Assembly: GCF_039954625.1 (NCBI RefSeq)
Contig: NZ_CP157199.1
Span: 2,480,001-2,544,000 of the forward strand
Length of the DNA: 64,000 nucleotides
DNA from: Pontimicrobium sp. SW4
Lineage (GTDB): Bacteria; Bacteroidota; Bacteroidia; Flavobacteriales; Flavobacteriaceae
Direction: 5' to 3'
Of this stretch, positions 12,964 through 32,492 are shown in pieces (position 1 is the stretch's first letter; the number at the start of each line of letters is the position of its first letter). The position numbers and the translations under genes are program-made. The notes under the pieces were generated by a model that made no database searches, was not told the DNA's origin, and saw nothing but the letters and a program-made list of their open reading frames with translations.

Positions 12964-15900
12964 ATGCAAAAATATACAGCCGTGAAAAAACCTACTTATT
13001 TAAAAACCAGCCTAGTTATTTTAGCACTATTTTTTGGGATACAGTCTTTTGCACAAAACTATGTTCCATTTACTCCTAGATTTGATCAAGATGTAAAAGG
13101 TGATATTGTCTTAATTGGTAACAATATTTTAGGACCAGACAACAATGCATTTAATGATAATTCGGTATATAATCATAACGTTAATATGCAATATATTGAC
13201 ATTGATGGGGATGCATCAACATATAACTCTTCTAGCGCAGATTTAGAAATACCAAACCCAAATTGTTATAGAATTATACACGCTGGATTATATTGGGGAG
13301 CGGTTACCAATGGTGCTGAATCAATTACCGATGTAAAATTTAAGGGTCCAGTTGGTCCATATTATGATGTAGTTGGAACTGTTATTTTTAATGCTAATGG
13401 CACCTCTGTAGATGGTGGTGATAGCTTTCCTTATGCCGCTTATGCCGATGTAACATCTATTGTTACAGGTATTGGCAATGGTGCTAATCTTGGCACCTAT
13501 ACAATTGCTAATGTGTCTAGTGCTCAAGGACAAACAGATACTTACAGTCCATATAATGGAACTGGACATTCAGCTGGTTGGTCATTATTTATTGTTTATG
13601 AAGACCCAACAATGCCTGGTAAATCCATTACCAGTTTTGATGGTTTTAGTGCTATTAGTGTTCCAGGAGGAAATCCTTCGTTAGATATACCAGTTTCAGG
13701 GTTTAGAACAATTCCTGCTCCAGCTCCTGTAAGAGCTAATTTTGCATTTGCTACTCTAGAAGGAGATAGCCCAATTCTGGGTGATCAGTTATTGCTTAAT
13801 GGTGTAAATCTTTCAACAGTAGATAGACCTGCAGCTAACTTTTTTAACAGTTCGGTAACGCGATTAGATGCAACACCTGTTACAAATAGAAATCCTAATA
13901 GCACTAATACCTTAGGATTTGACACTGGTGTTATGGTTGTTCCTAACCCTGGAAATACTGTTATCGCGAATAATGCTACAAATGCAACCGTACGTTTAGA
14001 AACAAGTGGCGATACCTTTTTTCCATATTTCTTCGCTTTAGCAGTTGATATTATTGAGCCAAATTTAGTCCTTACTAAAATTGTTGAAGATGCTTTAGGT
14101 AATGATATTGGTGGCCAGCTAGTAAATCTTGGTGATGAACTTAACTATGTTATTGGTTTTCAAAATACAGGAAATGATGATGCTACAAATATTACTATTA
14201 GAGATGTGCTACCAACTAATATCATTTTCAATTATCCTGCAGATATAGTATCATTACCAGCTGGAGTTACTGTGGATAGTTATAATCCAACAACAAAAGA
14301 AATTGTTTTTAGAATTGATGAATCTTTAGTTGAAGAAAACGACCCCGTTTCAGAAATTAGATTTAAAGTAACAGTTGTAGAATCTTGTAGTTTGCTTAGT
14401 GATGCTTGTTCTAATATTATAAGCAATCAAGCATTCACTACGTATTATGGTACATTAAACCCTACTTTTCAAATTACCGATGACCCTAGTTTAAGTAGTA
14501 ATACAGGTTGTTTATTAACACCTGCTGCAACTAATTTTCTAGCTGATTTAAACTGTACTTTTTCAGAAGAAGTCATTCTATGTGGTGACAGTGTTGTTTT
14601 AACAGCTGCAAATGGTTATGATTCATATTCTTGGTCAACTAGCCCAACTGGTACTCCAGTAATTGGAACCACACAGTCTATTACAGTTACAAGTACAGGA
14701 ACATATTATTCATTTAATACAGCAGCAGCACCTTGCCAATCTATAGAGCAGGAATATAATGTCATTACGTTTGGAGCAAATGTGCCTAATCCTGTACTTC
14801 CATATGCAGATCAAATAGTTATATGCCCTAATGACGGAAAAGAACTTCCAAATATATTTTTATGTGGTGCGAATGATGAAAGATTCATTCAAACGGGAAT
14901 TACAGATACTACATCAATGATTTGGGAAAAATTAGATGAAACTAGTTGTCCTGCAGTTGTAGACCAAGATTGTGCAAACGAAGATGCTACTTGTACATGG
15001 AATCAAGTTGCCACAGGACCTGATTATTTAGTGGATACCGCTGGACAATACAGGCTAACCCTAAACTATGATGGTGGTTGTTTTAACCAATTCTACTTTA
15101 ATGTTTATACCAATTTATTAGAACCTACAGTTACCTCAAGAGATATTGTATGTACAACACCAGGAGAAATTGTAGTCAATAATGTTCCAAGTGGTTATGA
15201 ATATAGTATTGATGGTGTGAATTATCAAGCTAGTAATATATTTTCTATTACGACTCCTGGAATTTACTCTATCTACATTAGACAAATAGGCGTATCTCCT
15301 AATCCTTGTATTTTTTCAGTTCCAGATGTTCAAATTAGAGAAAGAGATTTTACAGTTTCAACAATTATTACGCAACCGTATTGTAATGGTGATTTAGGAA
15401 GTGTACATATTGCTGCAAATGATGCAAATCCACAATATTTCTTTTCAATTTATCAAGGAGCAACACTAATTAATAGTGTTGGGCCTATAGTGCCAAGTGA
15501 TTATACGTTTAGTAATTTAAATCCAGGAATTTATACAATAAATGTGTCTACTGAAGATGGTTGTGCTTTTACTGGTGATATAGAAATTATTGAACCTCCA
15601 TTATTAACAGCAACTGCTGCACTTACAAAACCATTAACATGTACCGAAGGAGAAATTACCATATATCCTGTAGGTGGAACTCCTCCATATTTCTATTTCG
15701 TAAATAGCACTACTGTTTTTCAAACAACACCTATAATTACGGTTACAACGCCTGGGGTTTATAATATTACTGTTCTAGATTCTAATAACTGTTCTGCAGA
15801 TACTACTATAACAGTTGACGTTGCTCCTGCTCCAGAATACACAGTTACTCATACAGATATTCTATGTTCAGATGCTGGTAATGTTGGAGAAATTAGTATT

Positions 15901-18900
15901 AACGTTACAAACCCCAACGGAAATACTTTAGAATACAGTATTGATGGTGGCACAACATTTTTTAGTTCACCAATTTTTACTGGACTTGCTGCTGGAGATT
16001 ATGATGTAGTTGTTCAATACACTTTAGGAACAGATGTATGTGCAACTGCACCGCAAACTGTAACTATCTCTGCAGTAACTGCCATTGATGGCACTGCAAC
16101 GTTAACAACACCTTACACGTGTACAACTAATGGAGTTATTACAGTTTCAGGAGTCACTGGTGGAACTCCACCATATATGTATAGTATTGATGGATTTACT
16201 TTTCAATCAGGAAATACTTTTACAGGATTAACTTCAGGAACTTATACTATAACTATACAAGATGACAACAACTGTACATTTATTGCTGTACCAGTAACGA
16301 TTGATGTATTAAATCCACCAACTGATCTTACTTTTAGCAATACACCTTTAAGTTGTCCATCAATTACTTCTGATGTCACCATAACAGGAACTACAGGAGG
16401 AACTGCTCCTTTAGAATATCAAATTATTGCTCCAGCAGTTTCAGCAACTCCTTACCAAACATCAACTATTTTCCCAGGACTTGCTCCAGGAACTTATACA
16501 TTTCAAGTAAGAGATGCTAATGATTGTACATATAGTGAATCATACACTATTGCGCCATTACCTCCAACGACGGTGAGTACGGTTCTAACAAAAGATTTAG
16601 ACTGTACAGCCTCCCCTGATGCTATCATCACTGGAACAATTACTGGAGGAACTGCACCATTTACTTATGCAGTATCTATAAACGGAGGTGCTTATACTTC
16701 GTTAGGTGCAACAGGGTCTCCATTTACTTATATTGCTCCGACTGATGGAACATATCAATTTCAAATTACTGATGCAAATGGTTGTATTACAGAATCAGGA
16801 GTGCAAACAGTAAACGCTATTTCATTACCTGAAATAAGTTCAGTAACATCTACTTCAAATCTATGTAATGGCGATTTAAACGGTTCTATTCAAGTAACCA
16901 TTAATCCAAATGTTGGAACACCTCCATTTACAATTAATGTTTATACTACTACTACTAGCACTGATTACGGAACTCAAACAAGTGGTTTACCTGCTGGCAA
17001 TTATACAATTACATTAACAGATTCAAAATCTTGTACAGATACCGAAACTATTACCATAACCGAACCAGATCCAATTTTAGTAACCTACCATACTGTTGAT
17101 ATTACTTGTAGCCCAAGTGGCGTGTCACAAGGGTCAATAATAATTGATAGTGTTACTGGAGGAACTGCGCCTTATAATTACTTTGTAACTGGTACTAATG
17201 GTTATTCAGCCTCAGAGCTTAATGTTTCTGGTACAACATCTACAACGTTTGACGTTGTTGATTTTGGACTATATCAAATCAATGTTGTTGATGCTAATGG
17301 CTGTTCCATATTAATTCAAGATGTACTCGTTGCATCACCACCAGATGATTTAGATATTTCTGTAACATCAACGGTTGATTGTACTTTGGGTGGAGAAGCT
17401 GTAATTAGTATTGGTACAACTTTAATTGGTACTGGTCCTTTCTATTTTGATATTTATAGAGGATTTATTCCTCCTCCACCACCAGGAGGAACATGGATTC
17501 CCGAAGATTCTCCTGGAAGTCAATCGGCTACTTTTACAGGTTTATTACCTGGAGTTACCTACACTTTTATAGTATATGATGCTTCTACTGGTTGTAGTTA
17601 TTTTGAAACAGCAACAACATCAATTCCAACCAATTCAACATTAACAGCTGATGCCCTAACAGCAAATAATATTACCTGTGTTGGTAGTGCTGATGGGAAC
17701 GTATCATTTACAATAAATAGCACTTATGGTGTGTCAACAGATGTGAATTATGAAATATTTGACTCCTTAGCAACAACTACAACTGGTATCTCTGGTTCTG
17801 GTACAGTTGCAGCTGGAGGGTCTTTAACGGTAAACAATTTAGGACCATTACCTTTTGGAACTTATTTTGTACTGATTACAGAAACTACTGGGCCAAATGC
17901 TGGATGTAGCGTGGTTACTGTTCCTTTTAATATCACTGAATCTGCTTTTGATTTAAATATCACAGCAACGGTTGATAAAAATGCAAACTGTAATCCAAAT
18001 TCAGGAGTTATTAGTGCCATTGCAACAAATGGTACTGCACCATATTTATATCAATTAACTACGTCTGCAACGCCTCCGTTAGCTACAGACCCTTCTTGGG
18101 CATCTGCTAATGTATTTAACGTTGATGCAAACAACTATTATGCGCATGTTATGGATGCTTATGGCTGTATTAGAAGCACTTCAGTAATTGTGTTACCGAA
18201 TGACCCTGAACCAGTCATTGCTGCTTCAGTAAGCAATCAATGTACAGTTACCGACGGGAATTTTGAAATAGATGTTGCATTAACAACTGCTGGAATAGCG
18301 CCTTACAGTTATAGTATTGATGGTGGTGCATTCCAAACGCTTACTGCACCATTTACAATATCTAATTTAGCCTCAGGAACGCATACAATAGAAGTTCAAG
18401 ATGCTAATGGTTGTGGGAATTTAGTGTCTGTAGATATTGAAGCTTCATTAGAATTAATTCCAGAGATTACCACGATGCCTTCTTGTAATAATGATGATGG
18501 GCAAATAACCATTACAGGTTCTGGTGGAAGTGGAACCTATAGTTATTCTATAAGTCCAAATCCTGCATCAATTACCTTAGCTGGCAATGTGTTTTCTGGT
18601 GTACCATCAGGAACATATACTGTTACTATGACTGATACAGCAACATTATGTACTGAAGATGTTGAAATTGTAGTTCCAGAGGCAACGCTTCCTACATTAA
18701 CTACAACACCAACAGCAGTCACTTGCTTTGGAGATAATACAGGTACTTTTGAATTAAATGTGAGCGGTTACACTGGCGCATATAATTATGAAGTGTTTGA
18801 CAGTGGAAGTACATCAGTTTTTGGACTTGTTTCAGCGAATACGTCAACTAACCCAGAAATAGTAACGGGATTAATCGCAGGAACTTATACGGTTGTAATA

Positions 18901-21207
18901 ACTGAAACTGCAAGTCCGTTTTGTTCAAACACAACTGATGTCATCATTTCATCTCCAGCTGATGCTTTAACTGTGATTGCAACGGAAACGTCAAACGTAA
19001 CCTGTGATGATGATAGTGGTACCATAACTGCTATTGCAAGTGGTGGTTGGGGCACTTACGAATATGAATTAACTGGAGCAGCCACAATTGCTTACTCAGC
19101 AAACGGAACGTTTACAAACTTATCAGCTGGTACTTACACAGTAAATGTTAGAGACGCTGGAGGATGTATAGCATCAGATACTGTAACACTAGACATTCCA
19201 CCACCAATAACTTCAACAGTAACTGCAAGTACAACACTATTGTCTTGTTTTGGAGATGATAATGCAACAATAACTGCAAATGCCACAACTGGTGGTCAAG
19301 GTGCAAACTATACATATACATTGAATATGTTGTTGCCTACAGTAAGTACGTCTGGTCCGCAGTCATCGAATGTGTTCGGTAACCTAGGGGCTGGAACCTA
19401 TCAAGTAGTCGTAACTGATGGCTATAATTGTGAGTTTATTTCAGCAGATATTACTATTAATGAGCCAACTCAAGTAGAAGCTAGTTTAGTAGCAGCTACT
19501 ACTCCAACTTGTACAATTGATGCGACGCTTACTTTAAGTGCTTCAGGAGGGACTGGAACATACACTTATAGTAATGACGTTAGTTTTTCTACTGTTTTAG
19601 GGTCTTTTGCATCATCAACTACATTTTCTGTAACACCAGGAACATATCAATATTACGTTAGAGATGCTAATGGATGTATTTCTGCTGTATCAAACGAAAT
19701 AACAATTGATCCACTTCCAACATTGGATGTTAACTTGGAAGCAACAGATATCTTTATTAATTGCGTTGGAGATAATACTGGTGTTATTGTAGCGACTGCC
19801 GAAGGTGGATTAGGTAGCTACGTATACACCTTACAAGATGGATCAGGAAATGATATTTTACCTGCTCCAACACAAAATAGTCCAGGAGTGTTTACTGATC
19901 TTCCAGCAGGAACCTATCAAGTAGAAGTAGAAAGTGGTGATTGTTTAGCAACATCAGATATCATAAACATTACTGAACCATCGTCACCTCTAGTTGCAAA
20001 TTATACAGTAACTGATATCACTTGTAGTGGTAGCAATAACGGAATGGTTGAGATTACTGCTTCTGGTGGAACTGGAATTATTAAATATGCCATTTCTCCA
20101 CAGTTAAATCAGTTCTTTGACTCTCCAATATTTGAAGATCTTGCTCCAGGAGTTTATCAAGCTATTGCGCAAGATGAACTTGGCTGCTTTGTGATTATTG
20201 ATTTTACAATAAACGATCCAATTCCTGTATCACTTACTATTGTTGGAGGCTCTATACTTCCCGAAATTTGTGATGGCGATTTAGATGGTGAATTTAGTGT
20301 TGACATCTCTGGAGGTAATTTACCATACAGCGTTAGTTTAGATGATATTAATGGCACTTATACAATAGGTGGTCCAACTCAAACACAATTTGATTTTACA
20401 GGATTATCTGGAGGCGACCACATTGTTTATGTGCGTGATGCACTTGGATGTGAGTCGGAATGGAATATTTCATCCCCTGAATCCGTATTAATAGACCCTC
20501 AAGTTGAGGTAGAATTTGGTTGTGTGAATAATGCTCCTTCAAATATTGTTACTGTGATTGTTGATGATAGTATCACCAATCTTTCAGATTTAGACTATTC
20601 ATTAAATGGTGGTCTATATCAAGCTAGCAATGTGTTTGTTAATGTATCAGCAGGAACAGGGCATTATATTGATGTAAGACATACAAACGGTTGTATACAA
20701 AGAACCGAACTTTTTGATATTCCTGATTTTAACCCTTTAGTATTAACATTACAAGAGGGTGAAATAAATCAAATTGTGGCCATCACTTCAGGTGGTTCAG
20801 AACCTTATCAATACACATTAAACGGAGAGGATTATGGAAGTACTGATACATTTATTATTTATGAAACTGGTACTTACACCGTCACTGTAACTGATGCTAA
20901 TGGTTGTGTAGCTACTGCCATAATTGAGATGACCTATGTAGATGTTTGTATACCAAATTATTTTACGCCTAATGACGATGGTGTTCAAGATGATTGGGGA
21001 CCAGGTTGTACGGCTCAATACCCAAATCTTACGTTCGATATTTTTGATAGATATGGTCGTGTAATAGCCACGCTTAACCAGGGTGACAAATGGGATGGTA
21101 AATATAATGGTAATGAACTCCCAACTGGAGATTACTGGTATGTAGTGAAATTAAACGATACTAATGATAATCGCCATTTTGTTGGTCATTTTACTTTATA
21201 TCGCTAA
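12964..21207 (+). CDS. Giant SprB-repeat adhesin with T9SS type B domain (copy 1)
   Basis: A 2747-aa cell-surface protein. A signal peptide ends at QSFAQ (~residue 31). Residues ~35-365 form the head (PFTPRFDQDVKGDIVLIGN, NVNMQYIDIDGDASTY, RIIHAGLYWGAV). Residues ~370-490 contain a DUF11-like repeat (DLVLTKIVED is NLVLTKIVED here; NTGNDDATNITIRDVLPTN). From ~540 on there are many SprB-like units of the form GGTPPYMYSIDG ... GTYTITIQDDNNC. The end carries a type B sorting domain (CIPNYFTPNDDGVQDDWGP ... HFVGHFTLYR). SprB-like proteins are T9SS-exported and can move on the surface in gliding cells. The start may instead be GTG 12982, since copy 2 begins MKKPTYIK and this frame reads VKKPTYLK there. 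Residues ~973-2747 are identical to copy 2. The paired PorP/SprF gene follows after 11 bp. Confidence 0.9.
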   Translation: MQKYTAVKKPTYLKTSLVILALFFGIQSFAQNYVPFTPRFDQDVKGDIVLIGNNILGPDNNAFNDNSVYNHNVNMQYIDIDGDASTYNSSSADLEIPNPNCYRIIHAGLYWGAVTNGAESITDVKFKGPVGPYYDVVGTVIFNANGTSVDGGDSFPYAAYADVTSIVTGIGNGANLGTYTIANVSSAQGQTDTYSPYNGTGHSAGWSLFIVYEDPTMPGKSITSFDGFSAISVPGGNPSLDIPVSGFRTIPAPAPVRANFAFATLEGDSPILGDQLLLNGVNLSTVDRPAANFFNSSVTRLDATPVTNRNPNSTNTLGFDTGVMVVPNPGNTVIANNATNATVRLETSGDTFFPYFFALAVDIIEPNLVLTKIVEDALGNDIGGQLVNLGDELNYVIGFQNTGNDDATNITIRDVLPTNIIFNYPADIVSLPAGVTVDSYNPTTKEIVFRIDESLVEENDPVSEIRFKVTVVESCSLLSDACSNIISNQAFTTYYGTLNPTFQITDDPSLSSNTGCLLTPAATNFLADLNCTFSEEVILCGDSVVLTAANGYDSYSWSTSPTGTPVIGTTQSITVTSTGTYYSFNTAAAPCQSIEQEYNVITFGANVPNPVLPYADQIVICPNDGKELPNIFLCGANDERFIQTGITDTTSMIWEKLDETSCPAVVDQDCANEDATCTWNQVATGPDYLVDTAGQYRLTLNYDGGCFNQFYFNVYTNLLEPTVTSRDIVCTTPGEIVVNNVPSGYEYSIDGVNYQASNIFSITTPGIYSIYIRQIGVSPNPCIFSVPDVQIRERDFTVSTIITQPYCNGDLGSVHIAANDANPQYFFSIYQGATLINSVGPIVPSDYTFSNLNPGIYTINVSTEDGCAFTGDIEIIEPPLLTATAALTKPLTCTEGEITIYPVGGTPPYFYFVNSTTVFQTTPIITVTTPGVYNITVLDSNNCSADTTITVDVAPAPEYTVTHTDILCSDAGNVGEISINVTNPNGNTLEYSIDGGTTFFSSPIFTGLAAGDYDVVVQYTLGTDVCATAPQTVTISAVTAIDGTATLTTPYTCTTNGVITVSGVTGGTPPYMYSIDGFTFQSGNTFTGLTSGTYTITIQDDNNCTFIAVPVTIDVLNPPTDLTFSNTPLSCPSITSDVTITGTTGGTAPLEYQIIAPAVSATPYQTSTIFPGLAPGTYTFQVRDANDCTYSESYTIAPLPPTTVSTVLTKDLDCTASPDAIITGTITGGTAPFTYAVSINGGAYTSLGATGSPFTYIAPTDGTYQFQITDANGCITESGVQTVNAISLPEISSVTSTSNLCNGDLNGSIQVTINPNVGTPPFTINVYTTTTSTDYGTQTSGLPAGNYTITLTDSKSCTDTETITITEPDPILVTYHTVDITCSPSGVSQGSIIIDSVTGGTAPYNYFVTGTNGYSASELNVSGTTSTTFDVVDFGLYQINVVDANGCSILIQDVLVASPPDDLDISVTSTVDCTLGGEAVISIGTTLIGTGPFYFDIYRGFIPPPPPGGTWIPEDSPGSQSATFTGLLPGVTYTFIVYDASTGCSYFETATTSIPTNSTLTADALTANNITCVGSADGNVSFTINSTYGVSTDVNYEIFDSLATTTTGISGSGTVAAGGSLTVNNLGPLPFGTYFVLITETTGPNAGCSVVTVPFNITESAFDLNITATVDKNANCNPNSGVISAIATNGTAPYLYQLTTSATPPLATDPSWASANVFNVDANNYYAHVMDAYGCIRSTSVIVLPNDPEPVIAASVSNQCTVTDGNFEIDVALTTAGIAPYSYSIDGGAFQTLTAPFTISNLASGTHTIEVQDANGCGNLVSVDIEASLELIPEITTMPSCNNDDGQITITGSGGSGTYSYSISPNPASITLAGNVFSGVPSGTYTVTMTDTATLCTEDVEIVVPEATLPTLTTTPTAVTCFGDNTGTFELNVSGYTGAYNYEVFDSGSTSVFGLVSANTSTNPEIVTGLIAGTYTVVITETASPFCSNTTDVIISSPADALTVIATETSNVTCDDDSGTITAIASGGWGTYEYELTGAATIAYSANGTFTNLSAGTYTVNVRDAGGCIASDTVTLDIPPPITSTVTASTTLLSCFGDDNATITANATTGGQGANYTYTLNMLLPTVSTSGPQSSNVFGNLGAGTYQVVVTDGYNCEFISADITINEPTQVEASLVAATTPTCTIDATLTLSASGGTGTYTYSNDVSFSTVLGSFASSTTFSVTPGTYQYYVRDANGCISAVSNEITIDPLPTLDVNLEATDIFINCVGDNTGVIVATAEGGLGSYVYTLQDGSGNDILPAPTQNSPGVFTDLPAGTYQVEVESGDCLATSDIINITEPSSPLVANYTVTDITCSGSNNGMVEITASGGTGIIKYAISPQLNQFFDSPIFEDLAPGVYQAIAQDELGCFVIIDFTINDPIPVSLTIVGGSILPEICDGDLDGEFSVDISGGNLPYSVSLDDINGTYTIGGPTQTQFDFTGLSGGDHIVYVRDALGCESEWNISSPESVLIDPQVEVEFGCVNNAPSNIVTVIVDDSITNLSDLDYSLNGGLYQASNVFVNVSAGTGHYIDVRHTNGCIQRTELFDIPDFNPLVLTLQEGEINQIVAITSGGSEPYQYTLNGEDYGSTDTFIIYETGTYTVTVTDANGCVATAIIEMTYVDVCIPNYFTPNDDGVQDDWGPGCTAQYPNLTFDIFDRYGRVIATLNQGDKWDGKYNGNELPTGDYWYVVKLNDTNDNRHFVGHFTLYR

Positions 21208-22211
21208 TAATTAGCGCTATGCATCTAAACATTAAAATGAAAAAAATGAAAAAACGTATCATATATCTTTTAACTCTAATTGTAAGTTACAGTTATGGTC
21301 AAGAGTTGAATTTACCCGTTTTTACACAATATTTGGCAGATAATAATTTTGTTGTTGCTCCAACTTATGCTGGTATTGGAGATAATTTAAAACTTAGAGC
21401 AAACGGCCTAACACAATGGGTTGGAATTAAAGGTGCTCCAGACAATCAATCATTCTATGGAGACTTTAGAATTGCAGACCGTTCTGGAGTTGGATTGTCA
21501 TTTTATAATGATAGAAATGGAAATACCATTCAAAAAGGAGCAAAATTCTCTTTTGCACATCATCTCATTTTAGATTTAGTAACAGAACAATACTTATCGT
21601 TAGGCCTTACTTATAATATCAATAATTTTAGAATAGACATTGAAAATTTTATCTCAACTCCTGAAAACCCAATAATCGATCCTTTTATTACTGATGATAG
21701 AAAAACTACTAATAGTAACTTTGATGTTGGTGCGTTGTATAGATACAGAGCATTCTTTTTTAGTTTAAACCTAAATAATATTTTAAAGAAAAAAATTGAT
21801 GAAAGCGTTAGAGCATTTGAACCTAGTTTATTATTAAACTATCAACTTTATGCAGGTTATACGTATGGCCAAGCTAAAGAAGGTGGCATTGAGTTTGAAC
21901 CATCTGTATACTACCAATATTTCTCAAGCGACAAACGCTCAAGTACTGATATAAATATGAAAGTTAGAAAATTTGGGAAAGATGATAGTTACTTTTGGGG
22001 AGGTATATCATATCGTTTTCTTAATGATCAGTTCTTTAAACCTCTAAACATAGGTCCAATGGTTGGGTTTAAACAATCTATATTTTATTTTGGGTATGCT
22101 TACCAATTTACTACCAATGGATTATCTCCTTATAATTCTGGTACACATGTCGTTACTATCGGATTAGATTTTTTACGCGGAATTAGTGATTGTGCCTGTA
22201 CTAACAATCGT
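15880..22211 (+). repeat. Direct repeat unit 1 (~6.33 kb)
   Basis: This block covers the 3' 65% of adhesin 1 and nearly all of its PorP partner. It matches 25751-32082 at a constant offset of 9871 bp. The encoded proteins are identical throughout, and every stretch of DNA I compared was identical. The left edge is the T/C difference at 15879 versus 25750. The right edge is the A/T difference at 22212 versus 32083, near the end of the PorP gene. Confidence 0.92.
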
Positions 22212-22223
22212 AGCCCTTGGTAA
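21219..22223 (+). CDS. PorP/SprF family type IX secretion membrane protein (copy 1)
   Basis: A 334-aa predicted outer-membrane beta-barrel of the PorP/SprF family, with typical openings QELNLPVFTQYLADNNFVV and PTYAGIGDNLKLRANGLTQW and the end TIGLDFLRGISDCACTNNR. Such proteins help export or anchor their adjacent SprB-like T9SS substrates. The gene starts 11 bp after adhesin 1 and is surely co-transcribed with it. Later ATGs at 21237 or 21246 give a more standard signal peptide (MKKRIIYLLTLIVSYSYGQ). Only the last four residues (RSPW here) differ from copy 2 (RFRY), because the long repeat ends inside codon 331. Confidence 0.93.
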   Translation: MHLNIKMKKMKKRIIYLLTLIVSYSYGQELNLPVFTQYLADNNFVVAPTYAGIGDNLKLRANGLTQWVGIKGAPDNQSFYGDFRIADRSGVGLSFYNDRNGNTIQKGAKFSFAHHLILDLVTEQYLSLGLTYNINNFRIDIENFISTPENPIIDPFITDDRKTTNSNFDVGALYRYRAFFFSLNLNNILKKKIDESVRAFEPSLLLNYQLYAGYTYGQAKEGGIEFEPSVYYQYFSSDKRSSTDINMKVRKFGKDDSYFWGGISYRFLNDQFFKPLNIGPMVGFKQSIFYFGYAYQFTTNGLSPYNSGTHVVTIGLDFLRGISDCACTNNRSPW

Positions 22224-22411
22224 GATATTTTGAATTCTTTTATAATCACCAAACTAGCTTTATAACCGGTTCTAATAAGCCATCTCTTAGACGTTAAATA
22301 TTACAAGCAATAGATTACTAGTATAAAATAAATTTTGAAAATATAAATATTTATTCAGGACATTTTTCTCTAATAAAACATAAACGGCTCTAAACAGAAC
22401 ATAAGATTACT

Positions 22412-22440
22412 AAAAGCCTAAATCTAGTTGAGGCTTTTTT
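22412..22440 (+). terminator. Intrinsic terminator after adhesin/PorP cassette 1
   Basis: AAAAGCCT (22412-22419), an 11-nt loop, and AGGCTTTTTT (22431-22440) form an 8-bp stem with a T run, about 190 bp after the PorP stop. This separates cassette 1 from cassette 2. Confidence 0.8.
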
Positions 22441-22608
22441 ATTTTATTATATACTTTTAAGTGTTTCATGAATGAAATTATATTTTCACAAAATTTTTTA
22501 ATCAATTTGTCTTGAAATTTTAATATTCATATGATTTTTAGTTATAACTTAATTGTGATAGAATAGACTCCAATGATTAAAAGTGCTCTACAGGTTATTA
22601 TTAAATAT

Positions 22609-22650
22609 TCGATGAAACGCTTTTTTTTTACGATATATTACATATATTTG
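22609..22650 (+). promoter_or_regulatory. Promoter of adhesin 2: CGAT/T-tract/CGAT plus TATATTTG
   Basis: TCGATGAAACGC (22609-22620), nine T, A, CGAT at 22631-22634, then the -7 box TATATTTG at 22643-22650. The spacing from CGAT to CGAT (21 bp) and from the second CGAT to the -7 box (12 bp) is the same as at 6759-6799. The start site would be near 22657, giving a long leader (~185 nt). Confidence 0.7.
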
Positions 22651-22840
22651 TAGTGTTAATCCTTATATTTTTAAATATGGAAACCAGAATTATTTTTTTG
22701 TCTTTAAGTTTTTTTAGTGGCAAAAATTGGTTTTTGCTCAAAAAAATATAATAATAAAGAAGATGCAACAAAATAAAAGTAGTTAAGCATATCATTTTTT
22801 TATTTGCCCCCAATAAAAAAAGGTGTAAAATTATACAAAC

Positions 22841-25800
22841 ATGAAAAAACCTACTTATATTAAGATTCCCTATATTGTTTTATTACTGCTATTTGGTCTT
22901 AATAGTTTTGCTCAAACTTTTAAACCATTTACTCCAAGAGAGAATCTCAATGTGAAAGGAAGTATGCTTGTGATTGGTAATACAATTCTTGGCCAAAATA
23001 ACCAAAATTTCAATGATCTTACACGAGACAACCAAGATATCTCCATGCAATATATTGATATTGATGGTGATACATCAACTTTTAGTTCTAGTAGCGCAGA
23101 TTTAGTATTGCAGCCTCAAGAAGATGGAAGCTCAACAACTTGTTATCGTGTAGCTTATGCTGGTTTGTATTGGGGTGCTGTTTTACAAAGTGGAGATAGA
23201 TCTAATATTAATAATGTTAAATTTAAATTACCAGGAAGTAACACTTATAATGATATCACAGGTGAGTTAATATATGATGCTACTATAAATCCTATAATTG
23301 CTGAAGCTAATGAACCAGGAAATACACCTTATGCTTCCTATGCAGATGTAACAGATTTACTTACTGACTTAACAGATATTGAAGGGGCTTATACATTAGC
23401 GAATATAACTTCAAGCTTAGGTTTTAATAATTCTACTGGATTATCTGCAGGTTGGTCGTTAGTTGTAATTTATGAAGATCCAAATCTTCACACAAAATCT
23501 TTTACAACTTATGATGGGTTTAGCCACATATATAATGGTCATCAAGAAACAGTTCCAGTAACCGGTTTTACGACACCTCCTGCTGGCCCAATAGACTTAC
23601 AATTTGCCTATGGCACATTAGATGGTGATAGAACTAAAAGAGCAACAAAATTAGAAATTAATGGTAAAGAGGTTACAACTCCTTTTAGACCAGCCAATAA
23701 ATTTTTCGGATCTGTTATTGAAAACTATAATGGAATATCACATCCAAGAAACCCTTTCAGTGTTAACACTTTGGGTTATGATACTGGCTTTTTAGAAATT
23801 AAAAATTCTGAACCAGAATTTATAAAGAATGGTGATACTTCTGCAGACTTTAGGCTTCAAGTAGCGAGAGGACAAGCAGATCCTATTTTCGCTTTTTTTG
23901 CTGCTTTTGCAGTAGATATTATAGCGCCTGATTTAGACCTAACAAAGATAGTTTTAGATGAAAATGGAGTTAATATAGATGGAGATAATGTTGTACTTGG
24001 CCAAACAGTATTTTATGAAATTACATATCAAAGTGTCGGTAATGATAATATAACACAATCTACAATAACTGACATTTTACCAGAAAATATCATTTTTAAT
24101 CCTGCTACAGATATTGATTTAAGTAATGCAGGAGGAGCGACACTCTTATCATACGACCCTATTACTAGAACAATTGTTTTTAGTATTCCCGATGAGTCAG
24201 TTGAAGTAAATGATCCTAGCTTTGTAATTCGTTTACAAGTTCAAATAGTACCAAATTGTTATGATCTGAGCCAAGCATGTTCTAACGAAATAATTAATCA
24301 AGCTTTTGCAACTTATCAAGGAGTAATTAATTCAACTATCATAGAAGAGGAAGGTAGTTATGCAAATACAGAATGTTTAAGTGACCCTGGACCGACTAAT
24401 TTTATTGTAGATATTTCTAATTGTAATTTTGAAAAAACTGAAATTCTTTGTGGCAATAGTGTTGTTTTAACAGCTGCAAACGGATACGATTCATATTCTT
24501 GGTCAACAAGCCCAACTGGTACTCCAGTAATTGGAACAACACAATCTATTTCTGTTACAACAACAGGCACTTATTATGTAACAAATACAACATCTGCTAC
24601 ATGTCTTTCTATTGAAGAAGTCTTTCATGTAATTACCTATGGAAATACAATCACTAATCCTGTAATTCCATATGCAGATCAAATAGTTATATGCCCTAAT
24701 GACGGAAAAGAACTCCCGAATATTTTCTTGTGTGGTGCAAATGATGAACGAATTATTAATACAGGAATAAGTGATGCGGTTTCTATTGTATGGGAAAAAT
24801 TAGATGAAACAAGTTGCTTAGCGGTTGAAGTTGAAGATTGTGCAAATGAGGATGCTACTTGTACATGGAATCAAGTAGGTACTGGACCGGATTATACTGC
24901 AAATACATCAGGACAATTCCGCTTAGTAATTAATTATCCTGGAGGTTGTTTTAGTATTTTTTATTTTAATGTTTATACTAATTTATTAGAGCCAACAGTC
25001 ACCGCTAATGATATTTTATGTACAACACCAGGACAAATTACAGTTGGAGGTGTGCCTTCAGGGTATGAATTTAGTTTAGACCCTAATGGACCTTATCAAA
25101 CATCAAATATTTTCATTATTAATACACCTGGTTTTTATACAGTATATATCAGACAAATAGGTGTATCTCCAAACCCTTGTATTTTTGAAACCCCAGAAGT
25201 ATACATTAGAGCTAGAAACTTTAACGTAACTTCGACTGTCCTTCAACCTTTTTGTTATGGTGATTTAGGCAGTATTATTCTAGCAGTTAATGATGCGTTA
25301 CCTCAATATTATTATAGTATTTATGAAGGCACAACCTTAGTAAATAGTGTTGGGCCAATTTCAGAGAGTGATTATACTTTTGCCAATTTGAATTCAGGTA
25401 ATTACACTGTTAATGTTAGTACAGATGATGGTTGCTTTTATACTGAAGATATAGAAATTATTGAGCCTCCTCTATTAACCGTTACTGCTGCGCTAACTGT
25501 ACCTTTAACATGTACTGATGGTGAAATCACAATATATCCAGAAGGTGGAACTCCTCCATATACCTATTATATTAATAGTACAACTGAATCTCAGGATACA
25601 CCAGTTTATACAGTAACTGATTCAGGCGTATATAATATCACAGTGTATGACTTTAACAGCTGTATTGCAACAACATCTATTACTGTTGAACAGTCTTTAC
25701 CTCCAGATTTCAATATTACAACAACAGATATTTTATGTTCAGATGCTGGCAATGTTGGAGAAATTAGTATTAACGTTACAAACCCCAACGGAAATACTTT

Positions 25801-28800
25801 AGAATACAGTATTGATGGTGGCACAACATTTTTTAGTTCACCAATTTTTACTGGACTTGCTGCTGGAGATTATGATGTAGTTGTTCAATACACTTTAGGA
25901 ACAGATGTATGTGCAACTGCACCGCAAACTGTAACTATCTCTGCAGTAACTGCCATTGATGGCACTGCAACGTTAACAACACCTTACACGTGTACAACTA
26001 ATGGAGTTATTACAGTTTCAGGAGTCACTGGTGGAACTCCACCATATATGTATAGTATTGATGGATTTACTTTTCAATCAGGAAATACTTTTACAGGATT
26101 AACTTCAGGAACTTATACTATAACTATACAAGATGACAACAACTGTACATTTATTGCTGTACCAGTAACGATTGATGTATTAAATCCACCAACTGATCTT
26201 ACTTTTAGCAATACACCTTTAAGTTGTCCATCAATTACTTCTGATGTCACCATAACAGGAACTACAGGAGGAACTGCTCCTTTAGAATATCAAATTATTG
26301 CTCCAGCAGTTTCAGCAACTCCTTACCAAACATCAACTATTTTCCCAGGACTTGCTCCAGGAACTTATACATTTCAAGTAAGAGATGCTAATGATTGTAC
26401 ATATAGTGAATCATACACTATTGCGCCATTACCTCCAACGACGGTGAGTACGGTTCTAACAAAAGATTTAGACTGTACAGCCTCCCCTGATGCTATCATC
26501 ACTGGAACAATTACTGGAGGAACTGCACCATTTACTTATGCAGTATCTATAAACGGAGGTGCTTATACTTCGTTAGGTGCAACAGGGTCTCCATTTACTT
26601 ATATTGCTCCGACTGATGGAACATATCAATTTCAAATTACTGATGCAAATGGTTGTATTACAGAATCAGGAGTGCAAACAGTAAACGCTATTTCATTACC
26701 TGAAATAAGTTCAGTAACATCTACTTCAAATCTATGTAATGGCGATTTAAACGGTTCTATTCAAGTAACCATTAATCCAAATGTTGGAACACCTCCATTT
26801 ACAATTAATGTTTATACTACTACTACTAGCACTGATTACGGAACTCAAACAAGTGGTTTACCTGCTGGCAATTATACAATTACATTAACAGATTCAAAAT
26901 CTTGTACAGATACCGAAACTATTACCATAACCGAACCAGATCCAATTTTAGTAACCTACCATACTGTTGATATTACTTGTAGCCCAAGTGGCGTGTCACA
27001 AGGGTCAATAATAATTGATAGTGTTACTGGAGGAACTGCGCCTTATAATTACTTTGTAACTGGTACTAATGGTTATTCAGCCTCAGAGCTTAATGTTTCT
27101 GGTACAACATCTACAACGTTTGACGTTGTTGATTTTGGACTATATCAAATCAATGTTGTTGATGCTAATGGCTGTTCCATATTAATTCAAGATGTACTCG
27201 TTGCATCACCACCAGATGATTTAGATATTTCTGTAACATCAACGGTTGATTGTACTTTGGGTGGAGAAGCTGTAATTAGTATTGGTACAACTTTAATTGG
27301 TACTGGTCCTTTCTATTTTGATATTTATAGAGGATTTATTCCTCCTCCACCACCAGGAGGAACATGGATTCCCGAAGATTCTCCTGGAAGTCAATCGGCT
27401 ACTTTTACAGGTTTATTACCTGGAGTTACCTACACTTTTATAGTATATGATGCTTCTACTGGTTGTAGTTATTTTGAAACAGCAACAACATCAATTCCAA
27501 CCAATTCAACATTAACAGCTGATGCCCTAACAGCAAATAATATTACCTGTGTTGGTAGTGCTGATGGGAACGTATCATTTACAATAAATAGCACTTATGG
27601 TGTGTCAACAGATGTGAATTATGAAATATTTGACTCCTTAGCAACAACTACAACTGGTATCTCTGGTTCTGGTACAGTTGCAGCTGGAGGGTCTTTAACG
27701 GTAAACAATTTAGGACCATTACCTTTTGGAACTTATTTTGTACTGATTACAGAAACTACTGGGCCAAATGCTGGATGTAGCGTGGTTACTGTTCCTTTTA
27801 ATATCACTGAATCTGCTTTTGATTTAAATATCACAGCAACGGTTGATAAAAATGCAAACTGTAATCCAAATTCAGGAGTTATTAGTGCCATTGCAACAAA
27901 TGGTACTGCACCATATTTATATCAATTAACTACGTCTGCAACGCCTCCGTTAGCTACAGACCCTTCTTGGGCATCTGCTAATGTATTTAACGTTGATGCA
28001 AACAACTATTATGCGCATGTTATGGATGCTTATGGCTGTATTAGAAGCACTTCAGTAATTGTGTTACCGAATGACCCTGAACCAGTCATTGCTGCTTCAG
28101 TAAGCAATCAATGTACAGTTACCGACGGGAATTTTGAAATAGATGTTGCATTAACAACTGCTGGAATAGCGCCTTACAGTTATAGTATTGATGGTGGTGC
28201 ATTCCAAACGCTTACTGCACCATTTACAATATCTAATTTAGCCTCAGGAACGCATACAATAGAAGTTCAAGATGCTAATGGTTGTGGGAATTTAGTGTCT
28301 GTAGATATTGAAGCTTCATTAGAATTAATTCCAGAGATTACCACGATGCCTTCTTGTAATAATGATGATGGGCAAATAACCATTACAGGTTCTGGTGGAA
28401 GTGGAACCTATAGTTATTCTATAAGTCCAAATCCTGCATCAATTACCTTAGCTGGCAATGTGTTTTCTGGTGTACCATCAGGAACATATACTGTTACTAT
28501 GACTGATACAGCAACATTATGTACTGAAGATGTTGAAATTGTAGTTCCAGAGGCAACGCTTCCTACATTAACTACAACACCAACAGCAGTCACTTGCTTT
28601 GGAGATAATACAGGTACTTTTGAATTAAATGTGAGCGGTTACACTGGCGCATATAATTATGAAGTGTTTGACAGTGGAAGTACATCAGTTTTTGGACTTG
28701 TTTCAGCGAATACGTCAACTAACCCAGAAATAGTAACGGGATTAATCGCAGGAACTTATACGGTTGTAATAACTGAAACTGCAAGTCCGTTTTGTTCAAA

Positions 28801-31078
28801 CACAACTGATGTCATCATTTCATCTCCAGCTGATGCTTTAACTGTGATTGCAACGGAAACGTCAAACGTAACCTGTGATGATGATAGTGGTACCATAACT
28901 GCTATTGCAAGTGGTGGTTGGGGCACTTACGAATATGAATTAACTGGAGCAGCCACAATTGCTTACTCAGCAAACGGAACGTTTACAAACTTATCAGCTG
29001 GTACTTACACAGTAAATGTTAGAGACGCTGGAGGATGTATAGCATCAGATACTGTAACACTAGACATTCCACCACCAATAACTTCAACAGTAACTGCAAG
29101 TACAACACTATTGTCTTGTTTTGGAGATGATAATGCAACAATAACTGCAAATGCCACAACTGGTGGTCAAGGTGCAAACTATACATATACATTGAATATG
29201 TTGTTGCCTACAGTAAGTACGTCTGGTCCGCAGTCATCGAATGTGTTCGGTAACCTAGGGGCTGGAACCTATCAAGTAGTCGTAACTGATGGCTATAATT
29301 GTGAGTTTATTTCAGCAGATATTACTATTAATGAGCCAACTCAAGTAGAAGCTAGTTTAGTAGCAGCTACTACTCCAACTTGTACAATTGATGCGACGCT
29401 TACTTTAAGTGCTTCAGGAGGGACTGGAACATACACTTATAGTAATGACGTTAGTTTTTCTACTGTTTTAGGGTCTTTTGCATCATCAACTACATTTTCT
29501 GTAACACCAGGAACATATCAATATTACGTTAGAGATGCTAATGGATGTATTTCTGCTGTATCAAACGAAATAACAATTGATCCACTTCCAACATTGGATG
29601 TTAACTTGGAAGCAACAGATATCTTTATTAATTGCGTTGGAGATAATACTGGTGTTATTGTAGCGACTGCCGAAGGTGGATTAGGTAGCTACGTATACAC
29701 CTTACAAGATGGATCAGGAAATGATATTTTACCTGCTCCAACACAAAATAGTCCAGGAGTGTTTACTGATCTTCCAGCAGGAACCTATCAAGTAGAAGTA
29801 GAAAGTGGTGATTGTTTAGCAACATCAGATATCATAAACATTACTGAACCATCGTCACCTCTAGTTGCAAATTATACAGTAACTGATATCACTTGTAGTG
29901 GTAGCAATAACGGAATGGTTGAGATTACTGCTTCTGGTGGAACTGGAATTATTAAATATGCCATTTCTCCACAGTTAAATCAGTTCTTTGACTCTCCAAT
30001 ATTTGAAGATCTTGCTCCAGGAGTTTATCAAGCTATTGCGCAAGATGAACTTGGCTGCTTTGTGATTATTGATTTTACAATAAACGATCCAATTCCTGTA
30101 TCACTTACTATTGTTGGAGGCTCTATACTTCCCGAAATTTGTGATGGCGATTTAGATGGTGAATTTAGTGTTGACATCTCTGGAGGTAATTTACCATACA
30201 GCGTTAGTTTAGATGATATTAATGGCACTTATACAATAGGTGGTCCAACTCAAACACAATTTGATTTTACAGGATTATCTGGAGGCGACCACATTGTTTA
30301 TGTGCGTGATGCACTTGGATGTGAGTCGGAATGGAATATTTCATCCCCTGAATCCGTATTAATAGACCCTCAAGTTGAGGTAGAATTTGGTTGTGTGAAT
30401 AATGCTCCTTCAAATATTGTTACTGTGATTGTTGATGATAGTATCACCAATCTTTCAGATTTAGACTATTCATTAAATGGTGGTCTATATCAAGCTAGCA
30501 ATGTGTTTGTTAATGTATCAGCAGGAACAGGGCATTATATTGATGTAAGACATACAAACGGTTGTATACAAAGAACCGAACTTTTTGATATTCCTGATTT
30601 TAACCCTTTAGTATTAACATTACAAGAGGGTGAAATAAATCAAATTGTGGCCATCACTTCAGGTGGTTCAGAACCTTATCAATACACATTAAACGGAGAG
30701 GATTATGGAAGTACTGATACATTTATTATTTATGAAACTGGTACTTACACCGTCACTGTAACTGATGCTAATGGTTGTGTAGCTACTGCCATAATTGAGA
30801 TGACCTATGTAGATGTTTGTATACCAAATTATTTTACGCCTAATGACGATGGTGTTCAAGATGATTGGGGACCAGGTTGTACGGCTCAATACCCAAATCT
30901 TACGTTCGATATTTTTGATAGATATGGTCGTGTAATAGCCACGCTTAACCAGGGTGACAAATGGGATGGTAAATATAATGGTAATGAACTCCCAACTGGA
31001 GATTACTGGTATGTAGTGAAATTAAACGATACTAATGATAATCGCCATTTTGTTGGTCATTTTACTTTATATCGCTAA
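22841..31078 (+). CDS. Giant SprB-repeat adhesin with T9SS type B domain (copy 2)
   Basis: A 2745-aa surface protein with the same plan as copy 1: signal peptide ending NSFAQ (~residue 25), head with ISMQYIDIDGDTSTFSSSS and YRVAYAGLYWGAV, a DUF11-like segment (DLDLTKIVLDENGVNIDGD), SprB-like repeats, and the type B sorting domain. Residues 1-970 are homologous to but clearly diverged from copy 1, with patches of near identity such as NGYDSYSWSTSPTGTPVIG and DQIVICPNDGKELPNIFLCG. Residues 971-2745 are identical to copy 1. It has its own promoter (22609-22650), so the two heads can be expressed independently. It would be secreted by T9SS and paired with the PorP gene 11 bp downstream. Confidence 0.92.
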   Translation: MKKPTYIKIPYIVLLLLFGLNSFAQTFKPFTPRENLNVKGSMLVIGNTILGQNNQNFNDLTRDNQDISMQYIDIDGDTSTFSSSSADLVLQPQEDGSSTTCYRVAYAGLYWGAVLQSGDRSNINNVKFKLPGSNTYNDITGELIYDATINPIIAEANEPGNTPYASYADVTDLLTDLTDIEGAYTLANITSSLGFNNSTGLSAGWSLVVIYEDPNLHTKSFTTYDGFSHIYNGHQETVPVTGFTTPPAGPIDLQFAYGTLDGDRTKRATKLEINGKEVTTPFRPANKFFGSVIENYNGISHPRNPFSVNTLGYDTGFLEIKNSEPEFIKNGDTSADFRLQVARGQADPIFAFFAAFAVDIIAPDLDLTKIVLDENGVNIDGDNVVLGQTVFYEITYQSVGNDNITQSTITDILPENIIFNPATDIDLSNAGGATLLSYDPITRTIVFSIPDESVEVNDPSFVIRLQVQIVPNCYDLSQACSNEIINQAFATYQGVINSTIIEEEGSYANTECLSDPGPTNFIVDISNCNFEKTEILCGNSVVLTAANGYDSYSWSTSPTGTPVIGTTQSISVTTTGTYYVTNTTSATCLSIEEVFHVITYGNTITNPVIPYADQIVICPNDGKELPNIFLCGANDERIINTGISDAVSIVWEKLDETSCLAVEVEDCANEDATCTWNQVGTGPDYTANTSGQFRLVINYPGGCFSIFYFNVYTNLLEPTVTANDILCTTPGQITVGGVPSGYEFSLDPNGPYQTSNIFIINTPGFYTVYIRQIGVSPNPCIFETPEVYIRARNFNVTSTVLQPFCYGDLGSIILAVNDALPQYYYSIYEGTTLVNSVGPISESDYTFANLNSGNYTVNVSTDDGCFYTEDIEIIEPPLLTVTAALTVPLTCTDGEITIYPEGGTPPYTYYINSTTESQDTPVYTVTDSGVYNITVYDFNSCIATTSITVEQSLPPDFNITTTDILCSDAGNVGEISINVTNPNGNTLEYSIDGGTTFFSSPIFTGLAAGDYDVVVQYTLGTDVCATAPQTVTISAVTAIDGTATLTTPYTCTTNGVITVSGVTGGTPPYMYSIDGFTFQSGNTFTGLTSGTYTITIQDDNNCTFIAVPVTIDVLNPPTDLTFSNTPLSCPSITSDVTITGTTGGTAPLEYQIIAPAVSATPYQTSTIFPGLAPGTYTFQVRDANDCTYSESYTIAPLPPTTVSTVLTKDLDCTASPDAIITGTITGGTAPFTYAVSINGGAYTSLGATGSPFTYIAPTDGTYQFQITDANGCITESGVQTVNAISLPEISSVTSTSNLCNGDLNGSIQVTINPNVGTPPFTINVYTTTTSTDYGTQTSGLPAGNYTITLTDSKSCTDTETITITEPDPILVTYHTVDITCSPSGVSQGSIIIDSVTGGTAPYNYFVTGTNGYSASELNVSGTTSTTFDVVDFGLYQINVVDANGCSILIQDVLVASPPDDLDISVTSTVDCTLGGEAVISIGTTLIGTGPFYFDIYRGFIPPPPPGGTWIPEDSPGSQSATFTGLLPGVTYTFIVYDASTGCSYFETATTSIPTNSTLTADALTANNITCVGSADGNVSFTINSTYGVSTDVNYEIFDSLATTTTGISGSGTVAAGGSLTVNNLGPLPFGTYFVLITETTGPNAGCSVVTVPFNITESAFDLNITATVDKNANCNPNSGVISAIATNGTAPYLYQLTTSATPPLATDPSWASANVFNVDANNYYAHVMDAYGCIRSTSVIVLPNDPEPVIAASVSNQCTVTDGNFEIDVALTTAGIAPYSYSIDGGAFQTLTAPFTISNLASGTHTIEVQDANGCGNLVSVDIEASLELIPEITTMPSCNNDDGQITITGSGGSGTYSYSISPNPASITLAGNVFSGVPSGTYTVTMTDTATLCTEDVEIVVPEATLPTLTTTPTAVTCFGDNTGTFELNVSGYTGAYNYEVFDSGSTSVFGLVSANTSTNPEIVTGLIAGTYTVVITETASPFCSNTTDVIISSPADALTVIATETSNVTCDDDSGTITAIASGGWGTYEYELTGAATIAYSANGTFTNLSAGTYTVNVRDAGGCIASDTVTLDIPPPITSTVTASTTLLSCFGDDNATITANATTGGQGANYTYTLNMLLPTVSTSGPQSSNVFGNLGAGTYQVVVTDGYNCEFISADITINEPTQVEASLVAATTPTCTIDATLTLSASGGTGTYTYSNDVSFSTVLGSFASSTTFSVTPGTYQYYVRDANGCISAVSNEITIDPLPTLDVNLEATDIFINCVGDNTGVIVATAEGGLGSYVYTLQDGSGNDILPAPTQNSPGVFTDLPAGTYQVEVESGDCLATSDIINITEPSSPLVANYTVTDITCSGSNNGMVEITASGGTGIIKYAISPQLNQFFDSPIFEDLAPGVYQAIAQDELGCFVIIDFTINDPIPVSLTIVGGSILPEICDGDLDGEFSVDISGGNLPYSVSLDDINGTYTIGGPTQTQFDFTGLSGGDHIVYVRDALGCESEWNISSPESVLIDPQVEVEFGCVNNAPSNIVTVIVDDSITNLSDLDYSLNGGLYQASNVFVNVSAGTGHYIDVRHTNGCIQRTELFDIPDFNPLVLTLQEGEINQIVAITSGGSEPYQYTLNGEDYGSTDTFIIYETGTYTVTVTDANGCVATAIIEMTYVDVCIPNYFTPNDDGVQDDWGPGCTAQYPNLTFDIFDRYGRVIATLNQGDKWDGKYNGNELPTGDYWYVVKLNDTNDNRHFVGHFTLYR

Positions 31079-32082
31079 TAATTAGCGCTATGCATCTAAA
31101 CATTAAAATGAAAAAAATGAAAAAACGTATCATATATCTTTTAACTCTAATTGTAAGTTACAGTTATGGTCAAGAGTTGAATTTACCCGTTTTTACACAA
31201 TATTTGGCAGATAATAATTTTGTTGTTGCTCCAACTTATGCTGGTATTGGAGATAATTTAAAACTTAGAGCAAACGGCCTAACACAATGGGTTGGAATTA
31301 AAGGTGCTCCAGACAATCAATCATTCTATGGAGACTTTAGAATTGCAGACCGTTCTGGAGTTGGATTGTCATTTTATAATGATAGAAATGGAAATACCAT
31401 TCAAAAAGGAGCAAAATTCTCTTTTGCACATCATCTCATTTTAGATTTAGTAACAGAACAATACTTATCGTTAGGCCTTACTTATAATATCAATAATTTT
31501 AGAATAGACATTGAAAATTTTATCTCAACTCCTGAAAACCCAATAATCGATCCTTTTATTACTGATGATAGAAAAACTACTAATAGTAACTTTGATGTTG
31601 GTGCGTTGTATAGATACAGAGCATTCTTTTTTAGTTTAAACCTAAATAATATTTTAAAGAAAAAAATTGATGAAAGCGTTAGAGCATTTGAACCTAGTTT
31701 ATTATTAAACTATCAACTTTATGCAGGTTATACGTATGGCCAAGCTAAAGAAGGTGGCATTGAGTTTGAACCATCTGTATACTACCAATATTTCTCAAGC
31801 GACAAACGCTCAAGTACTGATATAAATATGAAAGTTAGAAAATTTGGGAAAGATGATAGTTACTTTTGGGGAGGTATATCATATCGTTTTCTTAATGATC
31901 AGTTCTTTAAACCTCTAAACATAGGTCCAATGGTTGGGTTTAAACAATCTATATTTTATTTTGGGTATGCTTACCAATTTACTACCAATGGATTATCTCC
32001 TTATAATTCTGGTACACATGTCGTTACTATCGGATTAGATTTTTTACGCGGAATTAGTGATTGTGCCTGTACTAACAATCGT
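25751..32082 (+). repeat. Direct repeat unit 2 (~6.33 kb)
   Basis: Second copy of the block at 15880-22211 (offset 9871 bp). It contains the SprB-repeat tail and sorting domain of adhesin 2 and its PorP/SprF gene except the final codons. It is separated from unit 1 by 3539 bp made of the intergenic region and the diverged head of adhesin 2. Confidence 0.92.
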
Positions 32083-32094
32083 TTTCGCTATTAA
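31090..32094 (+). CDS. PorP/SprF family type IX secretion membrane protein (copy 2)
   Basis: A 334-aa protein identical to the protein at 21219-22223 for residues 1-330 and differing only in the last four (RFRY instead of RSPW). An aromatic C-terminus (FRY, ending in Tyr) is closer to what is normal for outer-membrane barrel ends, although both copies end in an aromatic residue. The gene is 11 bp behind adhesin 2 and is its likely export/anchoring partner. Identity to copy 1 means either PorP should serve either adhesin tail. Confidence 0.93.
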   Translation: MHLNIKMKKMKKRIIYLLTLIVSYSYGQELNLPVFTQYLADNNFVVAPTYAGIGDNLKLRANGLTQWVGIKGAPDNQSFYGDFRIADRSGVGLSFYNDRNGNTIQKGAKFSFAHHLILDLVTEQYLSLGLTYNINNFRIDIENFISTPENPIIDPFITDDRKTTNSNFDVGALYRYRAFFFSLNLNNILKKKIDESVRAFEPSLLLNYQLYAGYTYGQAKEGGIEFEPSVYYQYFSSDKRSSTDINMKVRKFGKDDSYFWGGISYRFLNDQFFKPLNIGPMVGFKQSIFYFGYAYQFTTNGLSPYNSGTHVVTIGLDFLRGISDCACTNNRFRY

Positions 32095-32135
32095 CCTAAC
32101 ATACAACCTATTAATTGAATACTACTAAGATTATA

Positions 32136-32169
32136 TTTATTAATTCTTCTTTTTAAAAGAATTAATAAA
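32136..32169 (+). terminator. AT-rich hairpin, possible weak terminator of cassette 2
   Basis: A 13-bp perfect stem (32136-32148 with 32157-32169) and 8-nt loop lie 42 bp after the PorP stop. There is no T run after the stem and only one G-C pair, so termination activity is uncertain. It could be an mRNA 3'-end stabilising hairpin. Confidence 0.45.
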
Positions 32170-32273
32170 GCCTCTGACTATTCAATAAATAAAAATAAGA
32201 TTCCTCTGACCAAAAGGCAATAAAGAAAAACATTCCTACTACAATATTATTATTTGTTGACTTACTATTTATC

Positions 32274-32297
32274 AATAATAATAATAATAATAATAAT
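32274..32297 (+). repeat. (AAT)8 microsatellite
   Basis: Eight uninterrupted AAT triplets lie in non-coding DNA between cassette 2 and the tRNA. Slippage is possible, but no gene or promoter is obviously affected. Confidence 0.9.
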
Positions 32298-32380
32298 GTA
32301 ACTGTAGACATTGGATTAAAGGTTGCTACTATTTTAGATGTTAAAACGTTAATGATTATTTATCAAAATGATATAAAACA

Positions 32381-32414
32381 AAAAATCCATTTAACTTTTG
32401 TCAAATGGATTTTT
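32381..32414 (-). terminator. Intrinsic terminator after tRNA-fMet
   Basis: AAAAATCCATTT (32381-32392) pairs with AAATGGATTTTT (32403-32414) around a 10-nt loop. Reading on the minus strand it ends in a T run just after the tRNA 3' end. On the plus strand it could also stop transcription leaving cassette 2. Confidence 0.8.
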
Positions 32415-32419
32415 CTTAG

Positions 32420-32492
<73 letters not shown>

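Follow-up and report, generated by a model that had tools for sequence, protein, structure and literature searches.

Distinct heads on homogenised tails in tandem SprB-type adhesins of Flavobacteriaceae

In several genera of Flavobacteriaceae, speciation was followed by homogenisation of the tails of paired giant adhesins inside each genome, and the heads retained their old class. The window, the whole stretch of 64,000 nucleotides analysed here from Pontimicrobium sp. SW4 (genome G000), can be read as holding one adhesin/carrier unit twice, with different heads (class Y in adhesin A1 and class X in A2) and a tail in common. The common tail comprises a SprB-type stalk, a type B sorting domain and a PorP/SprF carrier with a Cys-X-Cys C-tail. 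We consider it probable that the heads are tip cassettes that can be exchanged on a tail/carrier module specific to the lineage and that the tails of two-headed arrays are homogenised by recurrent recombination. The parts of the array and its upstream neighbours are as follows.

8989..10425, plus strand: 478-aa protein with a CHU_C sorting domain, upstream neighbour, present in several relatives too
10428..12911, plus strand: 827-aa protein with an N-terminal PorP_SprF domain (Pfam), 52 bp upstream of A1
12964..21207, plus strand: adhesin A1, 2,747 aa, SprB repeats and type B T9SS sorting domain (PF13573 SprB, E 1.9e-56; TIGR04131, E 2.1e-25)
12964..15879, plus strand: head of A1, class Y, residues 1-972 (copy comparison, head tree)
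15880..22211, plus strand: exact repeat copy 1, the A1 tail (residues 973-2747) and PorP1 to 12 bp before its end
21219..22223, plus strand: PorP1, PorP/SprF carrier, 334 aa, C-tail Cys-Ala-Cys (PF11751, E 3.7e-69; TIGR03519, E 2.3e-60)
22224..22840, plus strand: AT-rich spacer, 617 bp, with one TANNTTTG box at 22643
22841..31078, plus strand: adhesin A2, 2,745 aa, SprB repeats and type B T9SS sorting domain (domain profiles)
22841..25750, plus strand: head of A2, class X (copy comparison, head tree)
25751..32082, plus strand: exact repeat copy 2, the A2 tail and PorP2 to 12 bp before its end
31090..32094, plus strand: PorP2, unlike PorP1 in the last three residues only (copy comparison)

The earlier note on this DNA had described an exact direct repeat of about 6.33 kb, and this is borne out. 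Compared pairwise, 15880-22211 and 25751-32082 match without a break over 6,332 bp (0 mismatches, offset 9,871), which leaves no scattered mismatches inside the block. This run takes in the last 1,775 residues of both SprB-type T9SS adhesins and almost the whole of the carrier genes, as the note had it, and the match ends 12 bp before the PorP end. Its claim of identical encoded proteins holds for the tails, and PorP1 and PorP2 are the same up to their last three residues (SPW versus FRY).

Outside the block the copies part. Downstream, identity is 0.25-0.36 per 250 bp, which is the chance level, and the copies are unrelated. Upstream (15251-15750), it is 0.68-0.73 per 250 bp at an offset that differs by 3 bp from that of the repeat; the heads are homologous yet diverged as had been claimed, being 58% identical with three short exact runs of 29, 49 and 26 bp.

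The repeat copies lie in direct orientation just 3.5 kb apart. The genome has 2 full copies and no more, the third match being 121 bp at 69%. No transposase or integrase was found near the repeat among the 12 ORFs scanned with Pfam of the 50 listed, so the earlier statement that none is nearby holds for those 12.

A1 and A2 are SprB-type T9SS adhesins with type B sorting domains. TIGR04131 matches their C-termini at residues 2663-2747 of A1 and 2661-2745 of A2 (E 2.1e-25, 88.7 bits, cut-off 35), and PF13573 finds 7 and 8 SprB stretches in A1 and A2 (E 1.9e-56 and 2.4e-57). PorP lies directly downstream of each adhesin, with a gap of 11 bp between A1 and PorP1 and the same layout for A2 and PorP2 (31078 to 31090). 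PorP1 and PorP2 are SprF-like carriers by their PorP/SprF family (profile: PorP1) and their Cys-X-Cys C-tail, which reads SDCACTNNR in both. A C-X-C within the last 40 residues is present in 77 of 77 close PorP homologues in the relatives' loci. The three residues that differ between the carriers (22212-22223 versus 32083-32094) come right after this motif.

Three reports bear on the pairing of adhesin and carrier. The Cys-X-Cys of F. johnsoniae SprF is required for gliding and bonds SprF to GldK (PMC12635249), each type B domain has its cognate carrier, though there is some crosstalk among close relatives (PMC12618676), and pull-downs suggest that SprB binds SprF via its C-terminal 368 residues (PMC9143113). 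Given the cognate pairing and this C-terminal binding, the block identical in A1 and A2 spans everything that needs an adhesin-carrier match, and the stalk as well.

Copy number was compared across the six genomes of the genus (G000-G005). Sister species G001 carries both heads, G002 and G005 have one unit with an A1-type head, and only a distant paralogue (37%) was recovered in G003 and G004. Contigs C1 and C9 of G001 each have one of the heads at an end, and the tail with PorP forms the single contig C6 of 6,394 bp, which corresponds to window positions 15830-22222. On its head side, C6 has an overlap of exactly 140 bp with each of C1 and C9; on its PorP side, it has 140 bp in common with C9 and with C36. 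Such a layout is what a short-read assembler produces when it collapses a repeat. The two G001 tails would hence be identical, as read from the assembly shape rather than from two sequences.

The tail dS is 0 within G000 (1,760 codons) versus 0.475 between G000 and G001. By a crude estimate, about 830 mismatches would be expected between the G000 tails had their divergence time equalled the species split. The tail paralogues are therefore closer within the genome than to the orthologues of the species having both, which is concerted evolution. The heads behave otherwise, with dS of 0.60 for orthologous head Y and 0.22 for orthologous head X between the two species, and about 1.2 for head Y versus head X within G000. 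For 10 of the 11 other nearby genes tested, PorP1 among them, G001 has matches at dS 0.41-1.16.

Head X (22841-25750) is far closer between G000 and G001 than head Y, the tail or the neighbours, and its low dS suggests a more recent horizontal exchange of this head. Another close stretch surrounds the sorting domain, where 20630-21380 is 91-99% identical between the two genomes and the other tail and PorP windows 78-92%.

The full pattern is repeated in two other genera. G045, a one-contig genome of another genus, carries two adhesins in tandem that match with 1 mismatch in 5,147 bp, their heads being 57% identical. In a third genus, G364 and G432 show exact runs of 6,471 and 6,617 bp that extend into PorP; their tail dS is 0 within each genome versus 0.673 between the species, and their orthologous heads are at dS 0.60 and 0.65. 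Draft assemblies may copy a collapsed consensus into both places, and the word exact applies most securely to G000 and G045. In G045 the tail of the second adhesin is nearly identical but no PorP follows it, and this adhesin may have to share the first carrier.

Six further genomes have partial or assembly-collapse signs. Both head contigs end at the same residues in G378, G231, G299, G406, G264 and G383, which is a sign of a collapsed shared tail. One head contig of G378 additionally overlaps the tail contig by 127 bp, and the two PorP copies of G406 have 1 mismatch in 1,611 bp. Within the genus of G045, the tails differ unevenly at 193 of 4,203 positions in G264, with a 269-bp exact run, and at 396 of 3,867 positions in G383. 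The G383 mismatch, in a genome flagged 7% contaminated, is about 20-35% from 150 to 1,350 bp and then about 3%.

Altogether 22 two-unit genomes were followed up, which are not a full census. Eleven of them, in 6 genera, are homogenised fully, partly or by assembly sign. Nine are non-homogenised (G008, G011, G022, G084, G148, G165, G214, G249 and G419), seven of these with the two units inside about 25 kb of a single contig, and the remaining two (G345 and G358) are counted neither way. Six non-homogenised tandem pairs consist of one short and one long adhesin, and their tails group by length class.

The two head classes are older than the split of the genera. A search with head X in 395 genomes of the family gave at least 33 matches in 33 genomes at 66-100% identity, and the next ones were at 58% or less among the matches listed. 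The 33 come from 23 genera; a 53-58% match occurs in 13 of these genera as well, by a hand count among the matches listed. These 53-58% matches were taken as class Y, part of them having been placed on the tree. Residues 361-528 of head X share a fold with the antigen I/II-like Ig domain. Comparison of the N-terminal head domain (residues 24-345) with known folds yielded no clear match.

Head class is uncoupled from tail ancestry in the sample of 30 adhesins from 26 genomes, selected among those available in one piece. The class label changes once on the head tree (support 100/100) versus 11 times on the tail tree, where 429 of 500 label shuffles are as low. The head order varies too, being Y then X in the window and G001 and X then Y in G045, G364 and G432.

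Head replacement seems to occur in the wider family, and one clear example comes from a single-copy locus. The two genomes concerned, G033 (X) and G257 (Y), belong to the same genus and share the operon, with one such unit found in each. Their DNA is 83-95% identical in the upstream operon, 53-73% in the head and 83-96% in the tail and PorP save one window of 71%; at the protein level, the heads are 55% and the last 1,200 residues 92% identical. The change of head occurs near residue 950 and so resembles that in the arrays, where the exact block starts at residue 973 (G000), 957 (G001), 888 (G364) and 870 (G432) in A1 numbering. The longest run of G045 starts later owing to its one mismatch, and its whole block starts near residue 990.

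This pair is the one clean single-locus swap, the X/Y comparisons in three other genera being less clear. Between G174 (X) and either G325 or G427 (Y), good agreement is confined to the final portion of the tail, and the G220/G355 and G011/G243 comparisons are diverged over the full length.

Identical tails might arise in other ways. A single unit duplicated or mis-joined in assembly would yield exact identity as a copied contig does, and we regard this as very improbable, because each copy has its own head, spacer and downstream flank inside one 3,431,248-bp contig (C1, of the two in the genome) and other species, including the sister in its own assembly, show like arrays. Strong purifying selection without recombination is a negligible prospect; the tail proteins are indeed conserved within the genus (dN 0.036-0.067), but the synonymous sites are identical as well, which refutes selection alone. 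The earlier note offered as an alternative a very recent duplication followed by head replacement. One tandem duplication of a unit and then replacement of one head would give exact tails, and it gains from the swap at the single-copy locus, from the one-unit congeners G002 and G005 and from the unusually close head X, which suggests a horizontal move. This is nonetheless improbable and misfits the origin of the array, since G001 already has orthologues of both heads with a collapsed shared tail, and the rare pair of events would be needed anew there and in two other genera.

The note's main proposal, recent gene conversion of the whole tail/translocator module, is supported as to homogenisation by recombination but not as to one recent event. 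The heads predate the genus split, and the sister species and two other genera show the same homogenisation, so that recurrent concerted evolution is indicated. The recombination might instead be unequal crossing-over with expansion and contraction of the array, a serious possibility that we lean against. The closeness of the direct repeats favours it, and so does the upstream-type head of the one-unit congeners, as a pop-out would leave. Against it, no three-unit array was found among the genomes examined, and the three single units of genus g222 carry the downstream-type head Y. The partial and uneven homogenisation in G264 and G383 resembles conversion tracts, and repeated exchange could produce the same. 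Both processes are compatible with the data, and conversion between repeats can be frequent, as described for E. coli rRNA operons (PMC8022953).

As to the recurrent homogenisation, we infer its mechanism and benefit, and binding by the heads and a common gliding track are putative. Homologous recombination between nearby direct repeats, by gene conversion and/or unequal exchange, would keep the tails identical, and heads would move between genomes through recombination in the conserved flanks. All heads may use the same carrier and gliding track, and the cell would present two distal tips without two secretion/anchoring modules.

SprB of F. johnsoniae gave the Pfam SprB family its name. The array resembles SprB/SprF (PMC9143113, PMC12618676, PMC12635249) in the SprB repeats, the type B sorting domain, the PorP/SprF gene directly downstream and the Cys-X-Cys C-tail. 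It differs in having two heads on one identical tail and carrier, the heads being uncoupled from the tails.

The products of P. gingivalis hagA, rgpA and kgp belong to other protein families. They are type A substrates, and we know of no carrier gene inside their repeat. They are similarly Bacteroidota T9SS surface proteins with identical adhesin-domain repeats between genes, allelic domain variants and allelic exchange (PMC5266723). In F. psychrophilum, a 10-kb repeat of an adhesin, PorP/SprF and an outer membrane protein flanks a 1.9-Mb inversion (PMC5808330). This is likewise an adhesin and PorP/SprF module repeated in one genome, but it is inverted and far apart, and the portion of that report at hand discusses it for the inversion rather than for heads versus tails. 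Repeated adhesin and PorP/SprF modules (PMC5808330) and identical adhesin repeats (PMC5266723) are thus already in print, and the searches of the open-licence literature yielded no earlier description of SprB-type adhesins with homogenised tails and exchangeable heads.

Paralogues nearer within a genome than to their orthologues are known from long-lasting concerted evolution in prokaryotes (PMC6053082) and from E. coli rRNA operon conversion (PMC8022953). Those genes evolve in concert as units, whereas here homogenisation affects one half of the gene and leaves the other half distinct. Recombination among neighbouring adhesin copies is also proposed for the Bartonella badA island; these are trimeric autotransporters with a variable stalk and a conserved N-terminus, the reverse of the present array (PMC8859334).

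The arrays would show where a giant T9SS adhesin splits into an exchangeable tip and a carrier-tied tail. The switch falls in one region (around residues 870-990) in the arrays and the single-locus swap, and the tail and carrier stay together. This division fits the cognate pairing of sorting domains and carriers in F. johnsoniae. The X and Y heads may serve as a natural guide for testing tip ligands, and the array is a clear bacterial example of concerted evolution in half a gene. It is also a warning that some assemblies collapse such arrays and put the second tip on a separate contig.

A wider reading, which we offer tentatively as rather unlikely, is a two-class tip system (X and Y) kept across genera of Flavobacteriaceae by balancing selection. 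Tip cassettes of about 2.8 kb would be captured and lost via two-headed arrays, and the identical tail/carrier modules would be platforms of frequent recombination for high-frequency reversible tip switching within populations.

Some observations concern the surroundings. The 827-aa protein (10428-12911) has a long extra C-terminal part, and a similar gene is at the equivalent place in several relatives. The TANNTTTG box at 22643, possibly a Bacteroidota promoter, is found in the G001 spacer too. Synteny breaks between the PorP2 end and a tRNA-Met gene (32419-32492, minus strand), within 32095-32492, the tRNA side being elsewhere in G001, G002 and G005.
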